A stretch of DNA of 64,000 nt from positions 1 to 64,000 of the forward strand of contig JAJYLX010000004.1 of assembly GCA_021787495.1 (NCBI GenBank), in the 5' to 3' direction. Each line of letters starts with the position of its first letter. Positions within the stretch are counted from its first letter, which is position 1. Below the pieces are notes generated by a model that was not told the origin of the DNA, did not search any database, and saw only the letters and a program-made list of their open reading frames with translations. This DNA is from Microcaldota archaeon (lineage in GTDB: Archaea > Micrarchaeota > Micrarchaeia > Micrarchaeales > Micrarchaeaceae). The position numbers and the translations under genes were made by a program. This document shows positions 48,154 through 51,127 of the stretch, one piece after another.

Positions 48154-48277
48154 GCTCATCTCTTCAGCGCAGCTCGGCCCGGATACCAAACCTTATCATG
48201 TCATGGCCCATGCTTGCATTCGCAGCGAAGGCTTTTATAGTTGACAGAATGCTTGTAGCAACCGAGCCGTGCCGGGC

Positions 48278-49231
48278 TCATGTCGATGCGGAGCGCAACT
48301 TTGAAAGGTCTTTTCTGATGACCTGCATCAGCTTAGGCTCCTCGTGGTACTCATTGCGCCTGACTGCCTGCGATACCCGCAGCATGTCTGTATCAGGCAC
48401 ATACGGAGAAAGTGTGCTTCTCCGCAACCACAGATGTGCCATCACGTCATTAGAGATCCCATCGTGCTCACGCTTCAGCTGCCTGAACACGTCTATAACC
48501 GCGATATACCTTCGCACTGAGTACCCTGCCAAAGCCGGATTCTTTAGTATTTCAGCCCTGATCATTTCAGAATCGATCCCAATCAAGTTACCTACCCTGT
48601 TAAGTTTTTGTGAGACTCTCTCGTGGTTCAGACCCGCGAACGAGGGGAATGACGAGACGATCTTTGAGACCTGCTGGTCGGTGAAGCCGTACGCAGCCTT
48701 TATGCCCTTGATGACGCGCTCATGATTATAACCCGCGAACGAGGGGAATGACGAGACGATCTTTGAGACCTGCTGGTCGGTGAAGCCGTACGCAGCCTTT
48801 ATGCCCTTGATGACGCGCTCATGGTCCAGACCCGCGAACGAGGGGGATGACGAGACGATCTTTGAGACCTGCTGGTCGGTGAAGCCGTACGCAGCCTTTA
48901 TGCCCTTGATGACGCGCTCATGGTCCAGACCCGCGAACGAGGGGGATGACGAGACGATCTTTGAGACCTGCTGGTCGGTGAAGCCGTATGCGGCCTTTAT
49001 GCCCTTGATGACGCGCTCATGATTATAACCCGCGAACGGGGGGAATGCGGATATAATCTTTAGTGTATCGGTAATTGTTATACTGTATATATTGGAAATT
49101 CTGACTATTCTACCGGTTAGCTCAGTGGCCGTCCTGTTCTGGCAACGGCTTTTGAAGCTTTCGTCTTGGGACAGCTCAATAGCTGCCGCATGGTCGAAGC
49201 CCACCTCTACCAGCATATCTACAAACGACAT
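48278..49231 (-). CDS. Helical repeat protein with near-identical mTERF-like repeats
   Basis: A 317-residue protein built around four nearly identical 33-residue units plus flanking degenerate ones. A unit reads VSKIVSSxPSFAGxxHERV then IKGIKAAYGFTDQQ. The pattern (hydrophobic-rich IV-x2-x-PSF, then a second helix ending with GF-x-DQQV) is like mTERF motifs, whose tandem repeats bind nucleic acid in eukaryotic organelles. A TATA centred near 49257 places the start of the message at the ATG, so it is leaderless. The DNA units are also near-identical (99 bp), suggesting recent expansion. Confidence 0.6.
   Translation of the reverse strand: MSFVDMLVEVGFDHAAAIELSQDESFKSRCQNRTATELTGRIVRISNIYSITITDTLKIISAFPPFAGYNHERVIKGIKAAYGFTDQQVSKIVSSSPSFAGLDHERVIKGIKAAYGFTDQQVSKIVSSSPSFAGLDHERVIKGIKAAYGFTDQQVSKIVSSFPSFAGYNHERVIKGIKAAYGFTDQQVSKIVSSFPSFAGLNHERVSQKLNRVGNLIGIDSEMIRAEILKNPALAGYSVRRYIAVIDVFRQLKREHDGISNDVMAHLWLRRSTLSPYVPDTDMLRVSQAVRRNEYHEEPKLMQVIRKDLSKLRSAST
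48620..49040 (-). repeat. 99-bp tandem repeat tract inside the mTERF-like gene
   Basis: Four 99-bp units nearly identical at DNA level, differing mainly at the SSF/SSS and YN/LD codons. High identity suggests recent unequal crossing-over. The tract stays in frame, so it is coding, not CRISPR. Confidence 0.85.
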
Positions 49232-49399
49232 ATACGTGTTGCAGTTTCAGAGATATATATAGGTTTTCTCTTTGGCTGTCGATTGACGAATCTATGCTGC
49301 GCGAAGAACCGGTGCTGCGCTTCAGCAAACCAAAGCATGGGCGGATTTTGCCGATATGTCAGGCATGTCAAGCAACTCTTAGGATGCAAATCATGTCTG

Positions 49400-51127
49400 C
49401 TACCTCTTGATCGCCTTGAGCAGCCTATCGGTCGGCAGCGTGTTGAGCACCCTGTCCGGAGTCAGCCAGCCCCTCCTTGCCGTCCCCACGCCGTAGCGCA
49501 GCATCTGGTAGTGAGCTGTGCTGTGCGCATCGCTGTTTATCGAGAACCTGACCTTATACTTTGATGCAAGCAATATATTCGTATCGTTCAGGTCGAGTCT
49601 GTTCGGCCAGGAGTTTATCTCGAGCGCCACGCCGTTGTCCTCGCATGCCTGCGCCACTCTGCCGAGGTCCATCGCAAAGCCCTCGCGCTCGTTGATGAGC
49701 CTGCCTGTGGGGTGCCCGAGTATGTGGATCAGGCCGCTCCCTATCGCCTTGACGACGCGGTCGGTCATCTCCCTTTCTGGCATCCTGAACGAGGCGTGGA
49801 CCGAGCCCACGACGCACTCCATCGACCTCAGCGTCTCCTTCGACAGGTCCAGGCTTCCGTCCTTGAGTATGTCGCACTCGGCGCCCTTGAGCACCCTGAA
49901 TCCTTTCAGGGAATCGTTCAGCCTGTCGACCTTCTTGTCGAATGCGGCGAACTGGCGGTCACTCATGCCCTTCGCTATCCTGAGGCTCTGCGTGTGGTTT
50001 GTGGTGGCAATGTACGAGAAACCCGTCTTCTGCGCTGCGTCCGCCATTTCCTCTATGGTGTTCGCCCCGTCTGTCTCCCTTGTGTGGGTGTGCAGGTCTC
50101 CCTTCAGGTCACTCATCTCAACTAGAGTTGGGATCTTGTGGTGCAATGCGAGCTGTATCTCCCCTCTCGCCTCGCGCATCTCCGGAGGGACGTACTGCAT
50201 GCCGAGCTTCGCGTATATGTCGCGCTCGTCGTCGCTCGCGATCATCCTCCCATCCCTCGTGAACAGCCCGTACTCGTTGAGCTTGTAGCCCTTCTTTATC
50301 GCTATGGTGCGCGTCTCGATGTTGTGCTGCTTGTTCCCTATGAAGTACTGCAGCGCGGCGCCGAAGCTCTCCTGCGGCAGCACCCTGAGGTCGCACGTGA
50401 CCCCTATGTTGAGCGAGACCGTGCTCCTCGTCGACCCCCTGCTGACCACGCCCGTCACATCCTTCATCGAGGTGAAGACGTCCATCGCCTTCTCTGGGGT
50501 CTTGGAGATCGCCAGTATGTCCAGGTCCCCTACTGTCTCCTTCATCCTCCTCGTGGAACCGGCTATCACGGCCTTGCTCACCGTGCCGCTCTCCTGCAGT
50601 GCGCGCACTATTGCCTCGGCGGCTGGCAGCCCCACGCCGAGCAGTATCCTGCCCTTGCTCGACTCACGTATCCGCATGCTCTTCGAGAACATCTCCTCGC
50701 TCTTCGAGCCGAAGCCCTCTATCGACGATATTCTGTGCGAGTCTATCGCCCCCTTCAGGTCCTGTAGGTTCCTTATGCCGAGCCTCTTGTACAGCGTCAC
50801 CGCCTTCTTGGCGCCCATGCCCTCGAGCGAGAGCAGCCCCTTGAAGTCTATCGGGTACCTCCTCTTCAGCTCGTCGTACTTCTTCATGTGCCCGGTCCTG
50901 ATGAACTCCTCGATCTTCCCCGCTATGCCGGGGCCGATTCCGGGGAACTCCATTATCGCCTTCACGCCCCCCCGCCTGTAGACGTTCTCTATGGGCTCCT
51001 GTATCGACATCAGCGTCAGCGCCGCGTTCTTGTACGCCCTGACCTCGAAGCGCGTCGTCTTGGTCTCCTCTATGCTGAGCATCGCTGCTATCTCGTCCAG
51101 CATGTCGGCAATTACCCGGTTTTCCAT
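49400..51127 (-). CDS. polX: DNA polymerase X with PHP domain
   Basis: A 575-residue PolX. The N-terminal polymerase part has an HhH-like segment VKAIMEFPGIGPGIAGKIEEFI and GSTRRMKETVGDLDIL (catalytic GS-x9-D-x-D motif). The C-terminal PHP domain reads LKGDLHTHTRETDG (HxH) with later HILGHPTGR and INSDAHS motifs. PolX with PHP fills gaps in base-excision repair and has a 3'-5' nuclease. Start chosen at ATG 51127 (MENRVIADML); 51145 adds six residues. Confidence 0.93.
   Translation of the reverse strand: MENRVIADMLDEIAAMLSIEETKTTRFEVRAYKNAALTLMSIQEPIENVYRRGGVKAIMEFPGIGPGIAGKIEEFIRTGHMKKYDELKRRYPIDFKGLLSLEGMGAKKAVTLYKRLGIRNLQDLKGAIDSHRISSIEGFGSKSEEMFSKSMRIRESSKGRILLGVGLPAAEAIVRALQESGTVSKAVIAGSTRRMKETVGDLDILAISKTPEKAMDVFTSMKDVTGVVSRGSTRSTVSLNIGVTCDLRVLPQESFGAALQYFIGNKQHNIETRTIAIKKGYKLNEYGLFTRDGRMIASDDERDIYAKLGMQYVPPEMREARGEIQLALHHKIPTLVEMSDLKGDLHTHTRETDGANTIEEMADAAQKTGFSYIATTNHTQSLRIAKGMSDRQFAAFDKKVDRLNDSLKGFRVLKGAECDILKDGSLDLSKETLRSMECVVGSVHASFRMPEREMTDRVVKAIGSGLIHILGHPTGRLINEREGFAMDLGRVAQACEDNGVALEINSWPNRLDLNDTNILLASKYKVRFSINSDAHSTAHYQMLRYGVGTARRGWLTPDRVLNTLPTDRLLKAIKR

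Follow-up and report, generated by a model that had tools for sequence, protein, structure and literature searches.

The locus and its tandem array

The window, i.e., the whole 64,000-nucleotide stretch of contig JAJYLX010000004.1 from a Microcaldota archaeon that was analysed, carries on its minus strand an open reading frame (48278-49231) which starts with ATG and encodes a protein of 317 amino acids (aa) with an isoelectric point (pI) of 9.55. The protein is built of tandem helical units and belongs, by sequence and by predicted structure, to the mTERF family (PF02536), whose members include human MTERF1. Its central part is encoded by a 99-bp tandem array at 48632-49047 (4.2 copies, 95% matches, Tandem Repeats Finder score 727), by a wide margin the strongest tandem array of the window. 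Two of the units, aa 83-115 and 116-148, show zero differences across all 99 bases, and the unit at aa 149-181 departs from them by six nucleotides in three codons, all of them non-silent. Degenerate units lie on both sides, at aa 50-82 before the array and from aa 215 after it. The array of four near-identical 33-residue units that the initial annotation described is therefore real, two of the units being identical to the base. The parts of the locus are listed below, with positions within a unit counted from the motif proline (P), such that P-1 is the residue before it.

48278-49231, minus strand: whole gene, encoding the 317-aa mTERF-fold tandem repeat protein (open reading frame, Pfam, predicted structure)
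49253-49262, minus strand: TATA-like box CTATATATAT of a putative leaderless-type promoter (sequence)
49085-49231, minus strand: N-terminal helical part, aa 1-49, kept in relatives L044, L046 and L047
48986-49084, minus strand: degenerate first unit, aa 50-82
48887-48985, minus strand: repeat unit, aa 83-115, with helices 86-95, 97-101 and 104-115 (sequence, model)
48788-48886, minus strand: repeat unit, aa 116-148, DNA identical to unit 83-115
48689-48787, minus strand: repeat unit, aa 149-181, differing at P-1 (S/F), P+5 (L/Y) and P+6 (D/N)
48590-48688, minus strand: repeat unit, aa 182-214, second half diverged
48281-48589, minus strand: C-terminal part, aa 215-317, with the last mTERF-like unit and a family-specific cap (SPYVPxTxxLR)
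48168-49432, no strand: stretch without match in two congeners, breakpoints approximate (congener comparison)

The TATA-like box ends 21 nt upstream of the ATG. As this gap leaves no space for a long leader, a leaderless transcript is plausible, and the sequence is consistent with the leaderless gene first proposed.

Predicted fold and family assignment

An AlphaFold2 model of the protein, built on six related sequences, reached a mean predicted local distance difference test score (pLDDT) of 90, with about 95 in the helices of the repeat units. Each unit is modelled as three helices of 10, 5 and 12 residues, not as the helix pair initially supposed, and the motif proline caps the short central helix, e.g., helix 97-101 begins with P97. 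In the PDB, the top match of the model is human MTERF1 (Foldseek E 8e-6), followed by MTERF3, the Tetrahymena mitoribosomal mTERF-like protein mS93 and MTERF4, ahead of all else. Comparison with MTERF1 by VIA gave Z 16.3 over 269-273 residues (root-mean-square deviation 4.8 over 273 residues, model 2-311), spanning at most model residues 1-311 and hence nearly the full length, against Z 9.1 for MTERF4 and 7.8 for TAL effectors; an independent model of the relative L044 gave Z 16.9 with MTERF1. MTERF1 itself is described as consisting of eight three-helix motifs of 33 residues, the central helix of each being capped by a proline, and R251 is among its base-reading residues (PMC4705650). Structure prediction had been named as the check on which the mTERF reading could fail, and since mTERF chains were its best PDB matches, rather than an unrelated fold, the reading was supported.

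The hidden Markov model search with PF02536 that had likewise been proposed as a check matched the protein at 46.1 bits (cut-off 23.1). Because identical repeats multiply chance scores, as a match to a rotavirus spike domain shows, shuffled controls were made by permuting the unit columns identically in all copies in three trials. None of these matched mTERF (0/3), and shuffled units also yielded spurious Pfam matches (DUF2112). Relatives with diverged units still exceeded the cut-off, namely L044 (42.7 bits), L008 (68.3), L007 (135.2) and L017 (68.1 bits, covering positions 6-277 of the model), and a profile of the diverged family searched against PDB sequences found MTERF1 and mS93, the latter being the best. 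Both the motif proline and an R at P+9 are present in 6/6 proline-anchored units of the window protein. At mTERF motif positions 11, 18 and 25 (the proline being 8), which are hydrophobic in mTERF, the window unit has A, V and A and the relative L005 has L, I and F. The sequence, the predicted fold and the family relation are directly established by these results.

Other matches of the window protein, i.e., VP4_helical, DUF3601, Integrase_Zn and NUP50 in Pfam, all above cut-off, and those in PHROGs, were rejected as repeat-multiplied chance, covering short stretches under unrelated names. Profile-profile comparison of L055 with the window family gave no significant match, therefore the link between these subgroups is PF02536 alone.

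Unit variation, relatives and genomic setting

The positions at which near-identical units differ were examined in recently expanded arrays, four of which are independent (window, G058, G034 and G178). Amino-acid changes concentrate at P-2 to P+6, which holds 15 of the 28 variable positions in the four arrays (P 0.0002, random placement) and 20/35 when a second G034 array is added (0.001 after correction for choice of stretch); silent changes are less clustered, with 9/29 in the same stretch (Fisher 0.03). All four independent arrays show variation at P-1 and P+5 (P 0.0005), and both positions vary again in a fifth array, from another phylum, which was found after the pattern had been noted (5/5 arrays, P 1.5e-5 under a null that lets every position vary). 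Array by array, amino-acid change showed no overall excess relative to silent change (pN/pS 0.25-0.90), so the claim rests on the location of the changes, not on their rate. This pattern of variation is directly observed. When MTERF1 residues are mapped by alignment, F243 falls at P+1, F322 at P+4 and R251, which reads bases, at P+9; the variable zone thus corresponds to the portion of an MTERF1 unit that is turned towards the DNA, with P-1 and P+5 flanking the DNA-facing central helix.

Relatives were found by sequence in 6/85 genomes of the family, including the window's own, which holds two paralogues, L002 and L003. The former (L002:706-2154, contig C8; 482 aa) has three N-terminal helix-turn-helix (HTH)-like segments, fused to mTERF-like units that have diverged and to the C-terminal cap seen in the window protein. 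Named relatives in GTDB contigs come from four Candidatus Micrarchaeota metagenome-assembled genomes (MAGs) and one uncultured archaeon. Across the phylum PF02536 scored above cut-off in 24/295 genomes, compared with 0/14 control genomes, and in a wider sample it reached a second archaeal phylum (3/156 genomes), with genome G326 at 78.8 bits. The number of proline-anchored units ranges across species from 3 to 9 or more (one genome per species). Carriage by a virus, phage or plasmid was rejected, there being no relative in the collections of viral contigs, plasmids and phages that were searched and no match of the model in a viral fold library at E 0.001.

Several of these arrays are of interest in themselves. 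In G058, a single contig of 928,770 bases, L005 and L013 form one array of >10 32-residue units that extends to the very last base and picks up again at the first; this record is probably circular and opened within the repeat. G034 holds two mTERF arrays with near-identical units (L020, L043) and a third, partial array at a contig end. Since arrays have a tendency to lie at the ends of contigs, the numbers of units counted in MAGs may be incorrect. Two further mTERF matches contain in-frame stops, L015 in G005 (82.2 bits, two stops) and L029 in G276 (29.8 bits, two TGA), and are possibly decaying genes. A different archaeal helical repeat family (L057:1150-2385, L032:1312-2427, L030:1390-1929), with units like GLTDRKIASQASLLGRDPETIKNNHQYLKTL, gives weak PF02536 matches, and its variation lies in a short inter-unit loop.

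In two congeners, G001 and G002, the flanking PolX-like and glycosyltransferase genes directly adjoin, without a counterpart of the window's ~1.2 kb stretch: they overlap in G001 (CTCAAGAGATGAGC) and are separated by a few to a few tens of bases in G002. The site is directly established by this comparison, and an insertion in the window's lineage is the simplest reading. A second TATA-like element, CTATAAAAGCC, lies at 48230-48240, with the repeat gene on one side and the glycosyltransferase gene on the other. The latter overlaps its upstream gene in G001; a new promoter may have come in with the insertion or become necessary through it. No conserved gene partner was seen, as relatives have differing neighbours without any gene in common, in agreement with the earlier description of the gene as standing alone.

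Proposed function and comparison with known systems

Taken together, we consider it probable (about 0.6) that the window protein is an archaeal mTERF-family, sequence-specific binder of double-stranded DNA, serving as a regulator or transcription roadblock, with its specificity set by unit number and proline-side residues. Most likely, the superhelix of 33-residue three-helix units would wrap along the major groove and recognise a short DNA sequence, the length of the site being set by the number of units. Recognition would be tuned unit by unit through the residues next to the motif proline that flank the short central helix (P-1 and P+5 and, in addition, P+1 and P+4); the bound protein would then regulate or block transcription, and duplication of units followed by change at these residues could give rise to new specificities. 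We infer here that the protein binds nucleic acid, with a preference for DNA over RNA, that its variable residues serve in recognition and that it has a regulatory role. DNA is favoured by the accessory distribution, the basic charge, the HTH-like segments fused to the repeats of a paralogue and the DNA binding of bacterial pTERF proteins.

Within the mTERF family, several members act on rRNA or reside in mitoribosomes (MTERF4, mS93), and the main rival explanation accordingly keeps the fold and changes the ligand: like MTERF4 or the mTERF proteins of mitoribosomes, the protein would serve in ribosome assembly or RNA processing. The structures of mS93 and MTERF4-NSUN4 are among the matches and the family profile has mS93 as its top sequence match, but a patchy accessory distribution, with relatives in 6/85 family genomes by sequence and in neither congener, is ill-suited to a core ribosome factor, and both the HTH-like fusion in L002 and the margin of MTERF1 over MTERF4 (Z 16.3 vs 9.1) speak for DNA. 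We regard an RNA ligand as unlikely. Some findings do weigh against the DNA-binding reading: mTERF proteins of the rRNA/mitoribosome type are also found among its structural matches, the HTH fusion occurs in one paralogue only (L002) with HTH scores below cut-off, and, by our own estimate, the P for the two shared variable positions becomes ~0.01 rather than 1.5e-5 if about half of the positions are free to vary.

A generic ARM- or HEAT-like helical solenoid which binds a protein partner, its mTERF likeness being convergent, is appreciably less probable; middling structural scores do come easily to helical repeats, but mTERF chains stand far above every other fold in the models of both the window protein and L044, the sequence profiles agree independently, and the capping proline is conserved in all units. 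Descent from, or recent common ancestry with, TAL effector (TALE) repeats is very improbable: phmmer with the whole protein does find TALE chains at E 5e-21, the NCBIfam AvrBs3 model matches at E 7e-6, and a structural likeness exists (Z 7.8), but neither a single unit, L044 nor the family profile finds any TALE, the profile returning mS93 and MTERF1 instead, so that we take the score as a weak unit-level likeness multiplied by identical units, and these results together with the shuffled controls, the three helices per unit and an MTERF1 Z twice as high led us to reject the ancestry suggested by the E 5e-21 match.

mTERF proteins have been studied almost wholly in organelles, with bacterial examples reported only in 2024, and archaeal members with near-identical tandem units put the fold in the other prokaryotic domain, whereby its origin becomes testable. 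Natural arrays which differ at a few residues per unit come near to being a ready-made experiment on sequence reading by mTERF units. More tentatively, archaea might possess, in addition to TALE and zinc fingers, another modular system for reading DNA, namely mTERF arrays in which the P-1/P+5 pair would be a recognition code and which would evolve as units are duplicated and altered at these two positions; were such a code to exist, these arrays could give a programmable DNA-binding scaffold.

With human MTERF1 and the eukaryotic mTERF family the archaeal protein shares the 33-residue three-helix unit, the proline-capped central helix and a superhelix of about eight units over its whole length. 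It differs in its archaeal host, units near-identical in DNA, a family-specific C-terminal cap and the lack of an organelle, and sequence identity to MTERF1 is 13-16%. TAL effectors and TALE-like proteins (dHax3, BurrH) have in common with it helical units of similar length, a DNA-wrapping superhelix and variable residues concentrated at a loop, but have two helices per unit rather than three, a lower Z (7.8 against 16.3 for MTERF1) and a sequence likeness limited to repeat-multiplied scores. In the literature searched, mTERF was not named alongside Micrarchaeota or DPANN in any paper, and within it the archaeal family, its canonical motif proline, the recent expansions and the P-1/P+5 pattern appear new. 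The initial view of mTERF repeats as known mainly from eukaryotic organelles needs amending, as prokaryotic occurrence is already published in the bacterial pTERF1 and pTERF2 (Hu et al. 2024), which are mTERF-like tandem repeat proteins with sequence-specific DNA binding (dissociation constant of pTERF1 1.87 nM) and for which reprogrammability has been proposed (PMC11417379). Their hosts are all bacterial, mostly Bacillota (PMC11417379). Both groups consist of tandem mTERF-like units in prokaryotes, with 3-11 units in pTERF and 3 to 9 or more in the archaeal family, and are set apart by the published description, according to which pTERF1 has neither the conserved proline nor the hydrophobic positions (PMC11417379), whereas the archaeal units keep the proline.
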